Positions 36,183 to 45,043 of a stretch of DNA of 64,000 nucleotides are shown here, piece by piece. The first letter of the stretch is position 1. The number at the start of each line of letters is the position of its first letter. The notes below the pieces were generated by a model. The model worked only from the letters and a program-made list of their open reading frames with translations, was not told where the DNA came from and searched no databases. The translations under genes were made by a program, and so were the position numbers. Origin of the DNA: Sulfobacillus thermosulfidooxidans DSM 9293 (GTDB taxonomy: Bacteria; Bacillota; Sulfobacillia; Sulfobacillales; Sulfobacillaceae); assembly GCF_900176145.1 (NCBI RefSeq), contig NZ_FWWY01000001.1, forward strand, positions 501,517 to 565,516, given 5' to 3'.

Positions 36183-38273
36183 TTAAGGCACAGGATGCCA
36201 AAGGGCCAATAACACGGCGACTATAGCACCATACACCAGCCAGCTCAAATATGCCGGGGTCGATCCTGATTGGGTCTTTCGCACTTGTCCTGCAATATAC
36301 CGAACCAATTTCAACAAGGGCAAATAGCCCTGTTCTTCTAATCGGTAAATAATGGTGTGACGATAGAACCGGACGCCTCCTTTGTCATAGCGTTGCCGCT
36401 TAAGACCAAAGAATCCTTGAAACGCCAATCGCAAGGGATGGACAAATCCTTCTGCCGTAAAACTCTTTTGGGCATTGTAATCCTGAGCCCCCCCTGTCCA
36501 CGGCTCAACCAAACGGACAGCCTTCCCTTTACGCATAAAATGACGAATGAGGGCCACAATTCCCGCCAACACAATGCCCATTAACAAGAGCACATAGGGA
36601 TCGCCCACCGAAAATCCTTGTGGAAAGAATATCGTTCCGGGGGCTCCCGGGGCCTTCACCAAATCTCCTCCGATATGAACCAAAAGCGGTACAGCCTTGG
36701 GATCAATAAGGAGCGGGGCAATCACAGATTGGCCATTGTTGCCAAAAATCTGCGAGCCTTGAAGATTTAACCACGGAATCAGCCAAGGAACCCCGGGCCC
36801 TGCAATCAAGACAGGTAAAAGCGCAATGACATAACCTACAACCTGTGTCGGTCGAAGTTTTTGCGCGGGTCGTTCAACTAGACGTGGAGCGCGACGTTTA
36901 GGTCCAAGAAACACAAACCCAAACCAGCGGATATACGTTCCTACCCCGACCGCACTGGCTAAGGCTAAAAAGATACCCGCCAGCAAGAACAGCAAGTGAA
37001 TATTACGCAGAGCCAAAGTGGTCCCGAGCGGTTTTAAAATGGATTCCAACAGGAGCCATTCCCCCACAAATCCTCCCAGAGGAGGTACTGCCGCCAAGGT
37101 GCCTACCGCCACCGCCGCGGCCAAACTCAACTTGGGCCGGTCATGGGCTATTCCGCCCAATCCATCAATCGTATGGGCAATGGGTTCGGTTTCTTCTGTA
37201 ATCGAAAACAAGACAAACTTTGCTCCAGCATGCATAATCAGCAAGATCATGGCCGCATCCCATGCCAATGTCGAAACCAAGGACTGGGGATTAGCCGCTT
37301 GCGCAATGTTCCAAATGCCCAAAGCGGAAAAGACCAGACCCAAGATTTCTAAGGTGGAATACGCCAAAATTTGTTTAACATGTCGGGAGACAATACTATA
37401 TAACGCGGCCACAAACGCTCCGGTCGTCCCTAAAATGAGCAAAATAATGCCCCAGCCTATGCCTGGATGGACCACATTTTCCACGGCTAAAATCCCTAAG
37501 ACCGCCAGGGCCGTAAACACCCCCGAGAAAAGCCCGGCCACCGGTCCTGGAGCTTCAGGTTCTGCTAGAGGCATCCAAATCATTACGGGGAATAACCCAG
37601 CTTTAACTCCAAATGCCAGCAAGACAAGAACCATGATGACCAGTTTGACGGCACTTGGCATGTGGGACGCTTCATGAGCTAACACCCGAAAATTGTCAGC
37701 GACAAACGATAGGGCGGCCCCATGATGTACCATGATCAGTCCCATGGCGAAAAGCAGTAGCAAACCTCCCATTTCCGACAAAATGAGTAAAACCCACCCC
37801 GCGTTCCAGAGTTTTCGGGACCGACGTGTCGTCACCAGCCCTAAATAGGAGCTTAAAGAAATAGCTTCTAATCCGAGCAGCAAGCTAAGCCCCCCGCCAG
37901 CCAGCAAGAAGAACCCCATACTGGAGGCCATTGGCACCAGGGCCCACAAGATCCGGGTTTCTGTAAGTGTCTTCCGAATAAGGAGCCAAGTTGCGCCTAA
38001 CAACACCCCGCTTAAGATGCTCCATAGATCCGCCATAGGTAAGGGTGCAAAGTGAAGGGGCGGAAAGGGTGTAGGCAAACTGGCGATGCCTGGGATTAAG
38101 GCATTTTGACTTATCATCCATCCCATCACCACAAGCCCCAAACTCGCCAACAAGACTTCCGCTCGTAATAGCGCTCGCGTCGCACTTTGGCCGATCACGC
38201 TGATAAGCCCGGCGGATAGGGGGCCGACAAGTCCTAACACAATCCACAGTTCACCCCAAAGCGCTGCGTTCAT
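36183..38273 (-). CDS. HyfB/NuoL-like proton-pump subunit of an Ehr-type complex
   Basis: Antiporter-like membrane subunit with about 16 segments and the extended C-terminus seen in HyfB/HycC. Conserved glutamate and lysines lie in the proton-channel segments (GLEAISLSSYLGL, VKAGLFPVMIWMPLAEPEAPGPVAGLFSG, YSTLEILGLVFSALG). ATG 38273 chosen (AAGGAGAG eight bases before), giving 696 residues; upstream in-frame sequence overlaps the small-subunit gene and adds nothing. Overlaps that gene's end by 23 bp. Last gene of the operon. Confidence 0.9.
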   Translation of the reverse strand: MNAALWGELWIVLGLVGPLSAGLISVIGQSATRALLRAEVLLASLGLVVMGWMISQNALIPGIASLPTPFPPLHFAPLPMADLWSILSGVLLGATWLLIRKTLTETRILWALVPMASSMGFFLLAGGGLSLLLGLEAISLSSYLGLVTTRRSRKLWNAGWVLLILSEMGGLLLLFAMGLIMVHHGAALSFVADNFRVLAHEASHMPSAVKLVIMVLVLLAFGVKAGLFPVMIWMPLAEPEAPGPVAGLFSGVFTALAVLGILAVENVVHPGIGWGIILLILGTTGAFVAALYSIVSRHVKQILAYSTLEILGLVFSALGIWNIAQAANPQSLVSTLAWDAAMILLIMHAGAKFVLFSITEETEPIAHTIDGLGGIAHDRPKLSLAAAVAVGTLAAVPPLGGFVGEWLLLESILKPLGTTLALRNIHLLFLLAGIFLALASAVGVGTYIRWFGFVFLGPKRRAPRLVERPAQKLRPTQVVGYVIALLPVLIAGPGVPWLIPWLNLQGSQIFGNNGQSVIAPLLIDPKAVPLLVHIGGDLVKAPGAPGTIFFPQGFSVGDPYVLLLMGIVLAGIVALIRHFMRKGKAVRLVEPWTGGAQDYNAQKSFTAEGFVHPLRLAFQGFFGLKRQRYDKGGVRFYRHTIIYRLEEQGYLPLLKLVRYIAGQVRKTQSGSTPAYLSWLVYGAIVAVLLALWHPVP

Positions 38274-38823
38274 TCTGATTCTCTCCTTGTTGAATCGGAT
38301 AGGTTTCCACAGCCTGTAATAGTCCTTGGAGAATATCTGCAGGCGTGGGCGGACATCCGGTAATTTCGACGGTGAGCGGCAGGACATTTTTCAAAGAACC
38401 CAGCACATCTGGCGCATGGGCAAACACATGTCCGTTAATGGCACACTGCCCTAAGGCCACGACCCGTTTAGGAGATGGCATCCCTTCAAATACGTGTTGC
38501 AGAATCTCAACCATCGGGCGTGTAATCACACCGGTCACAACCAAAATGTCCGCATGACGCGGAGACGGCGTGAAGGAAAAACCAAACCGAGAAAAATCAT
38601 AGTCCGGACTGGTAAGAAGCTGCAGTTCCGACTCACAGCCGTTACATGATCCTCCATCGACATGACGAATCGCCATGGCACGACGTATTGGAGCTGTTTC
38701 GTCATTCAGTGTACCCTGGATATGAATTTCTCCACGCGACACGATGTGGGGATCAGATTGTGCCGGAAATGTGGTGGTTTTGGGACCATGCAGCAAATCG
38801 GATAACCAGCGCCAGTAAAACAT
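38251..38823 (-). CDS. NuoB/HyfI-like Fe-S small subunit
   Basis: 190 residues from ATG 38823 behind GGGGAGGTGATG. The [4Fe-4S] cysteines corresponding to the N2 or proximal cluster are kept: GGSCNGCESELQLL, ALGQCAINGHV and TGCPPTPADILQG. In complex I this subunit passes electrons to quinone, in group 4 hydrogenases to the [NiFe] site. Since its partner large subunit lacks the [NiFe] ligands, electron transfer to quinone or another acceptor is more likely. Confidence 0.92.
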   Translation of the reverse strand: MFYWRWLSDLLHGPKTTTFPAQSDPHIVSRGEIHIQGTLNDETAPIRRAMAIRHVDGGSCNGCESELQLLTSPDYDFSRFGFSFTPSPRHADILVVTGVITRPMVEILQHVFEGMPSPKRVVALGQCAINGHVFAHAPDVLGSLKNVLPLTVEITGCPPTPADILQGLLQAVETYPIQQGENQNERSALG

Positions 38824-38836
38824 GTCATCACCTCCC

Positions 38837-40216
38837 CTATTGATCCCATCCGGCAACACTTAACAAAAAGCTGGCATCAATAATCGGAAAATCTTGTAAA
38901 ATATTCCCATTCGCCATAGCCGGTGGCACCACATACCAATTTCGTGCCGAGGGGGTCGCCACGGCAACATGCCGAATGATTTCGCCAGAGCCATCTAGCC
39001 AGAGTGCATAAGCCAACATGCCGCGGGGCGCTTCGACCATCCCAATCCCAGGTCCTTGGCTTGGGCCTTCCTCAAATACCGTGGAAACGTGAGAATGTCT
39101 TGGAGCTACTGGCAATAACCGGCGGATAATATTGACACTCGCCGTTATTTCTCGCGATTTGACCAGAAAACGAGCGTACGCATCCCTTTTGTCTGAAGAT
39201 GGGATAGCAAAAGAAATTTCATCATAGACCCCATAATCCCAAAGCGAGCGCACATCTACTTTAAGACCCGAGGCCCGTCCTACCGGACCCACGGGCGCAA
39301 TAAACTGCACGGTCTGTTCAGAAATCGTTCCTGCCCCCACTAAGCGGTCAAGGAATGAGGGGGTATGAAATAAACTGTCGGTAATAGCTTGCGCTTGTTC
39401 GCCCACGGCAATAATGGATGCTGACGCCTCATCAGCTACCTGGTTCAAGGCATTTTTGACTAAGGCCCCACGCAAATAGCGGTCACCAAAGAGCTTATAG
39501 TTCCATCGAAGAATTTGTTCTTTCAGATGAAGATAATCCATCTGGGCCACCGGCAATCCTGTCGACGACGCCAACAGGGCTAAATCCCCAAGATGAGACG
39601 CCAACCGCTCCATTTCCAATGCCACAGAACGGTAAATCTTGGTGCCCTCGTCGACAATTTTTCCCTGGGCATTTTCGACAGCCATCATGAACGCCCATTG
39701 ATGGGCAAATGATGAGGTGGCTGTCATGCGTTCAATGAGTTCTAAGGCTTGCGGCACCGTTTTCCCGCGACACAATGTCGTAATATGACGGCGCTTATAG
39801 CCGTGCTTCAGTGTCAAGTGCACAATTTCATCGCCCATCACAGCGAGGTCATAACGCAAGCTTTCACTCACGTCCCCATGGACAGGTCCCAAGGGATAGG
39901 TAAAAATCCCTTTACCACGGACAACCCGCTCGGGATGCGAAGGAGGAACCCAGGTTATCGACGACGGGGTATCGCGCGAAATGTCTTCTTGGAGATGGAT
40001 CCATTCACCAATTCCTGCGGTAGAAGGCCTAGGAACCTCCCTCGGATGAGAGAGACCCCACCATTCGTATTCTTTAGATCCCGGGTGACGCCCAATTCCC
40101 CACAAGATACCGTCCGGACCTGGAGTTAATAACACTAATAAGGTACCGTCGCGTCGGCGCTGAAGAATCTGATCAAGCCATCTTACCGCTTCTTGTTCGC
40201 CCCAAATTTGTTCCAC
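38837..40216 (-). CDS. NuoCD/HyfG-like large subunit lacking [NiFe] ligands
   Basis: 459 residues: a NuoC-like N-terminal part (about 1-115) fused to a NuoD/hydrogenase-large-subunit-like part. Where HycE has RVCGICGFAHS this protein has RMTATSSFAHQ, and where hydrogenases end in DPCxxC it has DFPIIDASFLLSVAGWDQ. All four cysteine ligands of the [NiFe] centre are therefore absent. The fold core is kept (VALEMERLASHLGDLALL, PVGPVGRASGLKVDVR, EAPRGMLAYALWLDG). GTG start with AAGGGAGTGAG. It cannot be a hydrogenase of the known type. Confidence 0.92.
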   Translation of the reverse strand: MEQIWGEQEAVRWLDQILQRRRDGTLLVLLTPGPDGILWGIGRHPGSKEYEWWGLSHPREVPRPSTAGIGEWIHLQEDISRDTPSSITWVPPSHPERVVRGKGIFTYPLGPVHGDVSESLRYDLAVMGDEIVHLTLKHGYKRRHITTLCRGKTVPQALELIERMTATSSFAHQWAFMMAVENAQGKIVDEGTKIYRSVALEMERLASHLGDLALLASSTGLPVAQMDYLHLKEQILRWNYKLFGDRYLRGALVKNALNQVADEASASIIAVGEQAQAITDSLFHTPSFLDRLVGAGTISEQTVQFIAPVGPVGRASGLKVDVRSLWDYGVYDEISFAIPSSDKRDAYARFLVKSREITASVNIIRRLLPVAPRHSHVSTVFEEGPSQGPGIGMVEAPRGMLAYALWLDGSGEIIRHVAVATPSARNWYVVPPAMANGNILQDFPIIDASFLLSVAGWDQ

Positions 40217-40247
40217 TAAAGCTCACTCCCTTCTCACCACGATCTGT

Positions 40248-41705
40248 TCATGAATTCTTTGGCATCACGACACGAGATGGCGAAGTATAGCGTAAGATGG
40301 CGGCCGCATGATGAAACATGTGTGGTAACAGTCCCGGCAAGGCAATGCCACCAATCACGACCAAAACCCCGAGTGTCATGGAGGGAAGAATCAACCGCCA
40401 TGATTCATGGACACGGTTTTTGCGCGATTCACCTGGGGTAAATAGCCACCGCGGCATTTTTAAGGTAATCCCCCCAAAAATGGCTAACAAGAGAATGATC
40501 GCGACAATGGTGACGACCACGTGGCCCTGGGCAATTCCCCCCATTAAAATGAGCCATTCACTCCAAAAAGGAGCGAAGGGCGGCAAGCCCACAATCCCGG
40601 TTGCCCCTAAGGCCAATAATCCGCCCGTATACGGTGAGCTTTCTAATAATCCGGACGTGTCAGGTAGGCTCGACACGCCATGATAATAGAGCCGGACAGT
40701 CCCCGCGTTATAAAACAACAACGTTTTATTAATGGCATGGGTCCAAACATGCAGTAATGCTCCTAAGACTCCTAATCCCCCAAACCCCAAGCCTAGGGCA
40801 ATAAGACCGATATGCTCGATACTCGAATAAGCCCAAAGGCGCTTCAGATCTTTTTGAAAGGCAACAAAACTAGCCGCGATAATCAATGATAACAAGCCCA
40901 AAATCCATAGCAAATCATGGGGCCAAGCCGCTGGAACAGCACCGGATGAAAGCGAAAACAATCGATCAAGAATTAAGACAGCCCCAGCTAACTTAACTCC
41001 GGATAATAGGGCCGATACAGGAGCCGGGGCTTCACTGTGCGCATCCGGCAACCATGTGTGAAAGGGCGCTAATCCTGCTTTGGCCCCATAGCCGACGGCA
41101 GCTAAAATAATGCCGGCCAAGACCATGGTCGAGTTGATGGGCAAAGATGTTGAAGCAGGCATCAACCCCCAAGTGCCCAAGTTTCTCGCGCTTCCCACGA
41201 GAATCAAAATGGTTCCGAGCAGACCAGCTAGTCCCCCGCTCTCTGTCACCACCAGATACCGCCAGGCCGCTTCAAGCGATGTACGTGTACCTGAGGTTTG
41301 CACTAAATAGATAGAGGACAATGTGGCCACCTCTAGCGCTACCCAAAGCAGCAAGTAGTTGGCCAATAACGCCATTGCCATTAATGATCCCACAAAGGTG
41401 TAAAGACCTAAGTAATATCCTTTGACACGGCGCTCATCCCAATCATGTAAACCGCTCTCGACCGCGATATAGGGACCGGAAAACCAAATGGCAAAGGCTC
41501 CAAACACGGTTGCCGTAATATCAAACCAATAAGCTAAAGCGTCCACTGGTCGAAAGAGGTGCCATAGGGGCATAAACAACGAGGCCATCATCAGCACAAT
41601 GACGAGCCCATTAAATGTCCGTAGATATTTGACAGGAAGAACCCAACCGATGAGGATAGCTCCCAACAAAATGGCTAGCGGCCAGATGTTTATCCACACG
41701 TTCAT
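40248..41705 (-). CDS. HyfF/NuoN-like proton-pump subunit
   Basis: 485 residues with about 14 membrane segments of the antiporter-like family: LLLWVALEVATLSSIYL, AKAGLAPFHTWLPDAHSEAPAPVSALLSGVKL and YSSIEHIGLIALGLG. This is the second pump-like subunit of the complex. Its start overlaps the HyfE-like gene by four bases (ATGA). Confidence 0.92.
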   Translation of the reverse strand: MNVWINIWPLAILLGAILIGWVLPVKYLRTFNGLVIVLMMASLFMPLWHLFRPVDALAYWFDITATVFGAFAIWFSGPYIAVESGLHDWDERRVKGYYLGLYTFVGSLMAMALLANYLLLWVALEVATLSSIYLVQTSGTRTSLEAAWRYLVVTESGGLAGLLGTILILVGSARNLGTWGLMPASTSLPINSTMVLAGIILAAVGYGAKAGLAPFHTWLPDAHSEAPAPVSALLSGVKLAGAVLILDRLFSLSSGAVPAAWPHDLLWILGLLSLIIAASFVAFQKDLKRLWAYSSIEHIGLIALGLGFGGLGVLGALLHVWTHAINKTLLFYNAGTVRLYYHGVSSLPDTSGLLESSPYTGGLLALGATGIVGLPPFAPFWSEWLILMGGIAQGHVVVTIVAIILLLAIFGGITLKMPRWLFTPGESRKNRVHESWRLILPSMTLGVLVVIGGIALPGLLPHMFHHAAAILRYTSPSRVVMPKNS

Positions 41706-42340
41706 CCTTTTAATTCCCCCGCTTTTCTGACGTCGACGGAATCATATTGGGCCCGCATCAAGGCCATATAAACGCTCAAAAGTAATGCCATACCAATCGC
41801 TACCCCATCAGCCAAGATATCAGGGATCAGGGGAAATGCACTCACTAACACAATAGCCAGCGTACTGGTAATGACCTCAAAATTTAACAGTCCCCAGGCT
41901 TCACTCCAAATTTCATAGCGAAGCGTCATCTGAACAAAAGCCACTAACCATGCGGCCCACAAAATGCCTTGAGTGATGGGATGATCGCCATGGAATTGGT
42001 CTCCTAGCAAGAAGCCTAAAATCGTGACGGCCAAACTTATGATTAAGACAAATGCCATGCCAAACCGACTCTGGGCACTGTAATCGCGCTCGACCGCATA
42101 AGAACCCGTATGCATCACATAAGGCACGACGATCACTTTGACGAGGACAACCAATACCGCAGAAAACCATAACCCATTTTGATGCAAGCTCTCAGCTAAC
42201 AACGCCAAGAGAGAGGCCTGCGCTAGGGCGTCCAAACGATATAAAATCCTCGCCGATCGGTTATTTTTGACAAGCATGACGATAACCGTAAAAGCCCACA
42301 TAAGCGAAGCCGTTAACCGCAGCCACATGCTTAAGGTCAT
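41702..42340 (-). CDS. HyfE-like membrane subunit
   Basis: 212 residues, six to seven hydrophobic segments; HyfE combines NuoK-like and NuoJ-like features in hydrogenase-4 type complexes. ALLAESLHQNGLWFSAVLVVLVKVIVVPYVM carries the lysine within a membrane segment typical of the family. GGAGGT ribosome binding site nine bases before ATG. Coupled to the HyfF-like gene downstream. Confidence 0.85.
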   Translation of the reverse strand: MTLSMWLRLTASLMWAFTVIVMLVKNNRSARILYRLDALAQASLLALLAESLHQNGLWFSAVLVVLVKVIVVPYVMHTGSYAVERDYSAQSRFGMAFVLIISLAVTILGFLLGDQFHGDHPITQGILWAAWLVAFVQMTLRYEIWSEAWGLLNFEVITSTLAIVLVSAFPLIPDILADGVAIGMALLLSVYMALMRAQYDSVDVRKAGELKG

Positions 42341-42361
42341 CTTTGCCTTACCTCCTTTCCT

Positions 42362-43312
42362 TTACACTAAAGACCATGCGGCTGTCACAGCACCAATAAT
42401 CGCGAGGACAATCGCTGCGGTAATAAAGTCCACATTGCGAATTAACCGCAATTTGGCGAAGCTGACCTCAATGGTGATTAACACGCCCGCAGCGAAAATA
42501 AGTTTCACCATGACCCAGAACACCGCTAAAGCTAATGACGATACGGCCAGTGAGCGAGCCAGACCAAATGGGGAGACCAACACATTCATCAAAATGATGG
42601 TCAACACCGTGAATTTCATCCAGCCGCCCCATTCATAGAGCATCAAATCCAACCCGCTCGATTCAAATGTCCGTCCGGGATCGATCATGGAAAGCTCTTG
42701 TGCCGTCGATGGATTATCGACCGGAATATGACCACTTTCCGCAATTAAAAAGAGGAACCATCCCACGATAATGAGAATATGGGCAGGACTAAATTCCCAC
42801 GGTGGCGATCCTAACGTTTGATTGACCACAAATGGTATTGTGGCGCCGGCCGCTTGGGCCGCAATAAATACGAGGAGGAGGGCTAAGGGTTCGGTAAATG
42901 TCGCAATCAACCGGATCCGGCTCACACCCAAAACGGGATAGACGCTTCCGCTATCGAGTGCGGCAAAGAGTAAGGCAATACCGCCACCGCCCAAAATCAT
43001 GCCTCCGGCTAACATATCTCCCATCCAAGCAAACGGTAAGGGAAATGTTGTGAGCACTGGGATCAACATGGCCACAATGAGAGGAGCAATAAAGTAGAAG
43101 ACTGGTGCCCATTCTGAGACCCATGATGTTTGGGTGGTCCGGATGGTCTCTTTATGCATCCATTTCCGCAAATCACGGTAAGGCTGCCAAATGGGCGGCC
43201 CATAACGTCCAGCCAACCGCGCTTTGTAACGATCCATAATCCCTTTAAGAAGAGGCGAAAAACCCAAAACAAAAAGAACTTGTATGAGTTGGGCCACATA
43301 TTCATTGACCAA
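42362..43312 (-). CDS. HyfC/NuoH-like membrane anchor subunit
   Basis: 316 residues, about eight membrane segments. Conserved loop GRYGPPIWQPYRDLRKWMHKE and the later IDPGRTFESSGLDLMLYEWGGWMK resemble the quinone-chamber/joint loops of NuoH and hydrogenase-4 subunit C. TTG start preceded by GGGAGG eight bases away. First gene of the six-gene operon. Confidence 0.92.
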   Translation of the reverse strand: MVNEYVAQLIQVLFVLGFSPLLKGIMDRYKARLAGRYGPPIWQPYRDLRKWMHKETIRTTQTSWVSEWAPVFYFIAPLIVAMLIPVLTTFPLPFAWMGDMLAGGMILGGGGIALLFAALDSGSVYPVLGVSRIRLIATFTEPLALLLVFIAAQAAGATIPFVVNQTLGSPPWEFSPAHILIIVGWFLFLIAESGHIPVDNPSTAQELSMIDPGRTFESSGLDLMLYEWGGWMKFTVLTIILMNVLVSPFGLARSLAVSSLALAVFWVMVKLIFAAGVLITIEVSFAKLRLIRNVDFITAAIVLAIIGAVTAAWSLV

Positions 43313-43360
43313 GCTATCATCCTCCCTAGATGGGGACAGCGATAAAAGGCAACAATAAAT

Positions 43361-43386
43361 CCTGCCAGGACATTAAATCTGGCAGG
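43361..43386 (-). terminator. hairpin between the DUF190 gene and the complex operon
   Basis: CCTGCCA/TGGCAGG stem with a 12-base loop, followed on the minus strand by ATTTATTGTT. A weak terminator or attenuator that could let some DUF190 transcripts read into the operon. Confidence 0.5.
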
Positions 43387-43466
43387 AGTCATTATCCGCA
43401 CTATGCACGGAGGTTCTGGACCTAGGGTCCAAGGCGGAATCCATCGCCTGGTGTTTAATTGACCAA

Positions 43467-43844
43467 TTACTGAGAATTATCGCGATCGATGTGTGGATCG
43501 TTTGTCTGATTGTGAGTATATTTCACCACTTTCACGGGGTCAATAGTAATTAGGCCTGCGTCCACCATCGTATCTAAAACGGGGAGAAACTTTTCTACAT
43601 ACTCTTTACTATCTACAATCTCCACCAGAATCGGCATATCACTGGATAAATCTAATAAGTTCACCGTGTGAATTCTGGATGTCGGACCAAATCCTTCTAA
43701 CGCGCGCATCACTGTGGCTCCCGCCATACCCATTTCTCGTGCTTTCAACACAATGGCATGGTATAGCGGTTTATGATGCCACCTCGCATCTTCGCCAATG
43801 AAAATCCTGAGTCGGAGAGCTTCTCCCGATATTTTCACTGCCAT
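43467..43844 (-). CDS. DUF190 (PII-like) protein
   Basis: 125 residues with the ferredoxin-like PII-related fold of DUF190: GEALRLRIFIGEDARWHHKPLYHAIVLKAREMGMAGATVMRALEGFG, then LSSDMPILVEIVDS. Relatives are trimeric and often bind adenine nucleotides beside transporters or bicarbonate systems. Here it sits 154 bp upstream of the complex I-like operon on the same strand, so it may be a regulatory partner of that membrane complex; this is inference from position. Confidence 0.85.
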   Translation of the reverse strand: MAVKISGEALRLRIFIGEDARWHHKPLYHAIVLKAREMGMAGATVMRALEGFGPTSRIHTVNLLDLSSDMPILVEIVDSKEYVEKFLPVLDTMVDAGLITIDPVKVVKYTHNQTNDPHIDRDNSQ

Positions 43845-44689: not shown

Positions 44690-45043
44690 GATGCGAGTTA
44701 ACTAATAAGCCGAGTTCTGTCGAGGATGACCATTTATCTTGGACGCCAGTTACCTGACGCCTCCAGCGACCTACCCGGACAGTCAGCGAGCAACCTCATC
44801 CTGCCCCTATTCGGTCTTGCTGCGGGTGGGGTTTACCAAGCAAGTCAGTCACCTGACTTCTGGTGCGCTCTTACCGCACCGTTTCATCCTTACCAAGAGT
44901 AACCTTGGCGGTTTGTTTTCTGTGGCACTTTCCTTAGGGTCGCCCCCACTGGACGTTATCCAGCACCCTGCTCTATGCAGCTCGGACTTTCCTCAGATGC
45001 CACCTTTCGGATTAGCACCCGCGGTCATCTTGTTAGCTCGCAC
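44690..45043 (-). ncRNA. rnpB: RNase P RNA, bacterial
   Basis: Catalytic RNA of RNase P, which trims tRNA 5' ends. The minus strand carries the universal signatures: GAGGAAAGTCCGAGCTGC and GCAGGGTGCTGG near the 5' side, and CGACAGAACTCGGCTTAT near the 3' side. P1 forms from TGCGAGCTAAC with GTTAACTCGCA, which sets the approximate ends. Length about 354 nt. Its ends are estimated from P1 pairing. Confidence 0.95.

Follow-up and report, generated by a model that had tools for sequence, protein, structure and literature searches.

What does an operon of hydrogenase-4-like genes do when the metal site of its large subunit is gone? The question is raised by Sulfobacillus thermosulfidooxidans DSM 9293, in a window of 64,000 nucleotides (contig NZ_FWWY01000001.1; G000:C1:501517-565516 of a 3.86-Mb genome), where six genes in the order hyfC-E-F-G-I-B run on the minus strand from position 43312 of the window down to 36183. 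An earlier note on this DNA had read them as members of the energy-converting-hydrogenase-related (Ehr) class and had thought of quinone, ferredoxin or a sulfur-linked carrier as partners, but made no mention of a fluoride riboswitch (43376-43457) and a DUF190 gene (43467-43844) lying upstream. In the present study we find that this operon belongs to a clade of Ehr operons, spread over many phyla, that is tied to the fluoride riboswitch, and we propose that it encodes a fluoride-induced, ion-translocating Ehr complex serving against fluoride and acid stress, a reading to which we give a probability of roughly 0.7 (0.72).

The occurrence of Ehr in Sulfobacillus is already known. Justice et al. 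(2014) described six syntenic, Ehr-like genes without [NiFe] motifs and of unknown function in every Sulfobacillus genome studied (PMC4378227), and cite Coppi (2005) and Marreiros (2013) for the class. On the side of the riboswitch, Weinberg et al. (2010) named "formate hydrogen lyase" among the genes behind the crcB motif (PMC2864571), and a 2024 review counts it among the commonest riboswitch-associated enzymes, explaining it by formate oxidation (PMC11139923). The clade-wide tie between Ehr and the fluoride riboswitch is the new finding; no link between Ehr and fluoride was found in the open-access literature, judged partly on titles and abstracts and with subscription journals outside the search, and a 2026 study of fluoride tolerance in bioleaching acidophiles mentions neither a riboswitch nor an exporter (PMC12831704).

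A fluoride riboswitch in the leader of the hyf operon

The gap between the DUF190 gene and hyfC contains a fluoride riboswitch aptamer (RF01734, crcB motif; minus strand), which forms the leader of the operon directly before hyfC. The match scores 43.4 bits (gathering threshold 34) with an E value of 1e-8 over the whole window, and it was recovered again in a search of the whole genome. A terminator-like hairpin (43351-43387, minus strand) can be read in the same leader as TCCTGCCAG / CTGGCAGGA, then TTTATTGTT, the conserved 3' end of the aptamer (CTCCTGCC) doubling as its 5' arm; the fold of the leader has a z score of -4.0. A strict terminator scan did not register this hairpin, owing to the length of its loop and its U-poor tail. 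Among the leaders of riboswitch-bearing Ehr operons, 25 of 59 carry a terminator-like hairpin that begins within the final portion of the aptamer; dinucleotide shuffles gave a mean of 2.1 and a maximum of 5. As read from these leaders, the overlap of hairpin and aptamer is the layout of an ON switch, in which the genes would be turned on upon fluoride binding. Regulation of the operon by the riboswitch is strongly supported by such sequence features, and we infer that in S. thermosulfidooxidans the operon is induced by fluoride.

Linkage of the riboswitch to one clade of Ehr operons

All large-subunit genes of 61 relatives were compared with all RF01734 matches in the same genomes. Class A comprises the orthologs of the hyfG gene of the window, class B a second Ehr of about 35 % identity, and class C the three-cysteine paralog from a third operon of six genes that these genomes carry (at C1:3247275 in the genome of the window). 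In class A, 33 of 36 hyfG genes have a riboswitch on the same strand 3126-3419 bases upstream, a distance that places it immediately ahead of hyfC; of the three without it, two have a contig end no more than about 0.9 kb away on their upstream side. For class B the count is 12 of 14 operons; of the remaining two, one is truncated at a contig end and one stands directly downstream of a riboswitch-bearing class A operon. Over classes A and B together the riboswitch lies 2.0-3.8 kb before hyfG. None was found before class C operons (0/16) or before nuoD of complex I in the same genomes (0/49).

This comparison was widened by a genome scan to 80 named loci from many phyla, a set that overlaps with the 61 relatives. 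The covariance model used was built from the riboswitches of the relatives, so that matches on the Sulfobacillus side arise partly by construction; Rfam's own RF01734 model, run on whole genomes of the distant loci, gave the same picture. Where enough upstream sequence was available, operons of the order C-E-F-G-I-B showed a riboswitch 3.27-4.13 kb before hyfG in 59 of 61 cases, the remaining two having it at 5.3 and 7.0 kb, and operons of the order B-C-E-F-G-I showed it in none of 11. Among the matches listed for 148 genomes of another phylum, sampled independently, all five Ehr with upstream room have a riboswitch at 3.7-5.2 kb, and no other member of the complex I and group 4 families has one.

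A maximum-likelihood tree calculated for 95 large subunits gathers the riboswitch-bearing Ehr in a single clade with a support of 100/99. All Ehr rows fall to one side of a 100/99 branch from HycE, MbhL and NuoD; with three reference rows on long branches and a midpoint root, Ehr may thus branch apart from complex I and from the group 4 [NiFe] hydrogenases. The riboswitch trait requires one change on the tree, a value reached in 0 of 500 shuffles. The clade includes Bacillota, Thermodesulfobacteriota, Myxococcota, Pseudomonadota, Nitrospirota, Planctomycetota, Acidobacteriota, Lentisphaerota, Fidelibacterota and one record labelled Actinomycetota.

The neighbourhoods agree with this division. 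DUF190 homologs stand near 13 riboswitch-Ehr loci and near no B-C-E-F-G-I or class C locus, and homologs of crcB, the fluoride channel, stand near 8 riboswitch-Ehr loci and near no other Ehr. Most Ehr carriers have CrcB and/or CLC genes as well. Four draft genomes of an estimated 95-99 % completeness (G010, G022, G036, G057) contain riboswitch and Ehr with no CrcB or CLC gene detected, and two of them, G010 and G022, yielded no riboswitch other than that of the Ehr operon. Because these assemblies are fragmented, this is suggestive but no proof.

The genome of S. thermosulfidooxidans contains a second Ehr-like operon of six genes in the order B-C-E-F-G-I (L036 8826-15606; G000:C1:3246825-3253605). 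Of the four [NiFe] cysteines its large subunit retains three (RVCGADS, ELCYSCNDR), the riboswitch is absent, and related operons were seen at L037 and L042. The three-cysteine type may represent an intermediate state in the loss of the site.

The large subunit lacks the [NiFe] and quinone ligands

HyfG (38837-40216, minus strand) was identified by its Complex1_49kDa match, by alignments and by an AlphaFold 2 model with a mean predicted local distance difference test score of 84 and a predicted template modelling (TM) score of 0.88, to which the nearest solved structure is HycE (PDB 7z0s; TM score 0.87). On alignment RMTATSSFAHQ stands opposite RVCGICGFAHS of Escherichia coli HycE, and the C-terminus ...DFPIIDASFLLSVAGWDQ opposite ...DAPLIIGSLDPCYSCTDR, so the ligand motifs RxCGxC and DPCxxC are both absent, as the earlier note had claimed. 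The whole protein of 459 residues contains one cysteine; a set of four cysteine ligands is therefore impossible, and with it a [NiFe] site. That note had named two ways in which its reading might fail. Neither held: the single cysteine leaves no room for shifted ligands, and a sequencing error is excluded by the same residues in orthologs of 93, 73 and 66 % identity and in dozens of genera. Every riboswitch-controlled large subunit that we read likewise lacks CxxC at either end.

The residues that hold the quinone headgroup in Thermus thermophilus Nqo4, His38 and Tyr87, align with Ser117 and Ala166 of HyfG. Because of these replacements quinone coupling of the known kind, one of the possibilities raised before, is unlikely, and we rejected a quinone site on this ground. 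Some residues of the vacated pocket are kept: Glu118 is invariant across classes A and B and aligns with Glu21 of MbhL, the proton-transfer glutamate of the hydrogenase (PMC7684303), and His172 is also kept. A hydroxyl-rich motif together with the glutamate is conserved in the former [NiFe] pocket of the riboswitch-controlled HyfG, the motif of class A differing from that of class B.

The cluster subunit and the pump subunits are kept

HyfI (38251-38823, minus strand; PF01058, E 1e-25) retains the four cysteines for the proximal [4Fe-4S] cluster in the pattern CxxC...C...C (CNGC, C139 and C169), and all four are present in 53 of 57 relatives, in keeping with what had been noticed. Around CNGC, which holds the first cysteine pair, HyfI aligns without gaps with the four-cysteine loop of MbhJ. 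The shortened three-cysteine cluster loop that is tied to sulfur reduction is not present, and we rejected chemistry of the MBS type; the sulfur-linked coupling that had been thought conceivable is not supported. At two riboswitch-Ehr operons, L070 and L080, serine replaces the first cluster cysteine; there the proximal cluster may have other ligands or may not be required.

The view that both pump subunits look intact was borne out by the relatives. In HyfF (40248-41705, minus strand; PF00361, E 4e-47) the residues E125, K209, H323, K327 and E383 are conserved in 63/63, and in HyfB (36183-38273, minus strand; PF00361, E 7e-34) E175, K232, H356 and K360 are conserved in 65/65 and E413 in 64/64. 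The conserved charged residues of HyfC are nearly all kept as well (about 61 relatives). These are residue types on which proton translocation by complex I depends.

Gene content of the operon and its surroundings

All six reading frames are intact and have the family matches expected of HyfC-, HyfE-, HyfF-, HyfG-, HyfI- and HyfB-like products, which upholds the gene content first reported: NADHdh, Proton_antipo_M (twice), Complex1_49kDa, Oxidored_q6 and the hydrogenase-4 membrane subunit in Pfam and NCBIfam. The hyfC-like gene (42362-43312, minus strand), of the NuoH family, has a TTG start and matches PF00146 at E 4.7e-25. The hyfE-like gene (41702-42340, minus strand) was named from a match to NF008556, the hydrogenase 4 membrane subunit, at E 2e-8, under the curated cut-off, and from its position in the operon. 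The likely starts of hyfB (38273) and hyfI (38823) both lie slightly within the listed open reading frames. With six core subunits, the [NiFe] ligands gone and the proximal cluster cysteines kept, membership in the Ehr class is supported by sequence comparison, as had been proposed.

Within the hyf operon there is no gene for a ferredoxin-like HyfA or HyfH subunit, again as reported before, and none for formate dehydrogenase or for NuoE, NuoF, NuoG or NuoI. We looked for dedicated electron-donor genes nearby and found none conserved, the recurrent neighbours of interest besides hyf being DUF190 and crcB. A convergent LysR gene, considered as a regulator of the operon, is conserved solely in the four closest genomes. 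The DUF190 (COG1993) gene (PF02641, E 8e-38) lies directly 5' of the riboswitch on the same strand as hyfC. Genes of this family recur beside both riboswitch-Ehr and crcB, the homologs of known structure (2dcl, 1o51) are proteins without a name, and the product may act as a small regulatory protein for such transport systems. Further upstream of the operon the window contains an RNase P RNA of class A (44690-45040, minus strand; 324.8 bits).

Other fluoride riboswitches were seen in the genome. One (L155 323-4999; G000:C1:422322-426998) stands before a DUF190 paralog, downstream of which sulfocyanin-like, cupredoxin-like and terminal-oxidase-like genes follow on the same strand; these respiratory genes may belong to a common unit under fluoride control. 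Another, on the plus strand (L155 9041-10647; G000:C1:431040-432646), adjoins and diverges from an enolase gene, and the gene behind it has no Pfam match. A weaker match of 30 bits, below the cut-off (L156 5054-6030; G000:C1:2251053-2252029), precedes a small membrane protein, also without a Pfam match.

Discussion

The linkage described above suggests that the riboswitch-Ehr complex protects against fluoride and does not make hydrogen. We propose that without fluoride the leader RNA would fold the terminator hairpin, halting transcription before hyfC, and that when cytoplasmic fluoride rises the RNA would bind it, the hairpin would be blocked and hyfCEFGIB would be transcribed. The product would be a complex I-like membrane ion pump (HyfB, HyfC, HyfE and HyfF) with a small cytoplasmic arm (HyfG and HyfI), the latter carrying one [4Fe-4S] cluster and the emptied, still protonatable former [NiFe] pocket. 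Hydrogen fluoride (HF) that enters the cell lowers the cytoplasmic pH and depletes the proton-motive force. By moving protons (or H+/Na+) the pump would most likely counter both effects and so contribute to fluoride resistance. We infer the ion moved, its direction and its drive, which may be a flow of electrons through the cluster or an ion gradient; restoration of the proton balance under fluoride would be the simplest role. Na+/H+ antiporters are the next commonest riboswitch genes after the exporters (PMC11139923).

Several points weigh against this proposal. Riboswitch control also covers enolase and other metabolic genes, and fluoride control is therefore no proof of an action on fluoride or on pH. 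The fluoride tolerance of S. thermosulfidooxidans is low, with complete inhibition during sulfur oxidation (PMC12831704), and any such system is therefore at best limited. Moreover, the proximal cluster implies redox chemistry, and yet none of the operons examined contains an electron-input subunit, nor does the complex have a recognisable site for an electron acceptor.

A bolder alternative is the direct export of fluoride or HF, by which this branch of complex I and hydrogenase-4 would be a dedicated fluoride-resistance machine and a third kind of exporter beside Fluc and CLC-F. F- or HF would bind in the emptied pocket (Arg163, Thr/Ser, Glu118, His172) and be expelled by the antiporter-like subunits, with electrons or an ion gradient as the driving force. 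We regard this as unlikely. The strict control by the fluoride riboswitch, the four genomes in which CrcB and CLC were not detected and the conserved hydroxyl-rich motif with its glutamate would all suit an exporter; however, no path for F- is known in the family, the pocket sits in the cytoplasmic arm, its motif differs between classes A and B, and exporter genes accompany Ehr in most carriers.

A little less probable still is a respiratory or fermentative bypass, in which the complex would pump while passing electrons from ferredoxin or a formate dehydrogenase to an acceptor, replacing fluoride-inhibited metabolism in the supply of energy. The kept cluster cysteines would fit such a role, a pairing of Ehr with formate dehydrogenase has been proposed (PMC6349859), and Sulfobacillus possesses selenocysteine formate dehydrogenases together with NuoEFG-like genes (PMC4378227). 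Against it, an electron-input gene occurs in none of the conserved operons and the quinone ligands are lost.

An Ehr coupled to quinone, ferredoxin or sulfur and unrelated to fluoride is very improbable: its fold, its subunit set and the sulfur-oxidising host would be compatible with this, but the riboswitch stands before 59 of 61 operons in about ten phyla, mostly not known as sulfur oxidisers, the equivalents of His38 and Tyr87 are missing and the cluster loop is of the four-cysteine type, not that of MBS. Finally, a genuine formate hydrogenlyase or [NiFe] hydrogenase, as such riboswitch genes are annotated (PMC2864571, PMC11139923) and as HycE being the nearest solved structure might suggest, is refuted for these loci because the [NiFe] ligands are missing, in the one-cysteine HyfG of the window as in the other riboswitch-controlled HyfG read, none of which has CxxC at either end.

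If the genes listed behind the riboswitch are the Ehr clade, Ehr acquires a role in physiology that the addition of fluoride would put to the test, and the "formate hydrogenlyase" entry, listed since 2010, needs a different explanation. If our proposal of a fluoride-induced, ion-translocating complex is true, a relative of respiratory complex I would be part of the defence against a toxic ion, with a bearing on the fluoride poisoning of bioleaching acidophiles.

Comparison with known systems

The Sulfobacillus complex resembles formate hydrogenlyase and hydrogenase-4 in its fold, its proton-transfer glutamate and the cluster motif of its small subunit, but it lacks the four [NiFe] cysteines and the subunits of the HyfA/HyfH type. 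With complex I (Nqo4/NuoD) it shares the membrane pump subunits and the 49-kDa fold; it differs in having no equivalents of His38 and Tyr87, no NuoE, NuoF, NuoG or NuoI genes in the operon, and a CxxC in the small subunit where NuoB has tandem cysteines. Like the MBS sulfane reductase of Pyrococcus furiosus (PMC7684303) it has neither a [NiFe] site nor quinone ligands, whereas MBS itself has a three-cysteine loop and no equivalent of MbhL Glu21, and the Sulfobacillus Ehr keeps Glu118 and the four-cysteine loop. The "formate hydrogen lyase" genes of the fluoride riboswitch have the same regulatory RNA before Hyf/Hyc-like genes and are taken as genuine in the literature, while those that we read are unable to bind nickel or iron. 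With Ehr the operon shares the six core subunits, the missing [NiFe] ligands and the kept proximal cluster cysteines; as published, Ehr is a class of unknown function, whereas here its C-E-F-G-I-B clade is tied to the fluoride riboswitch and the Ehr of the B-C-E-F-G-I order are not.

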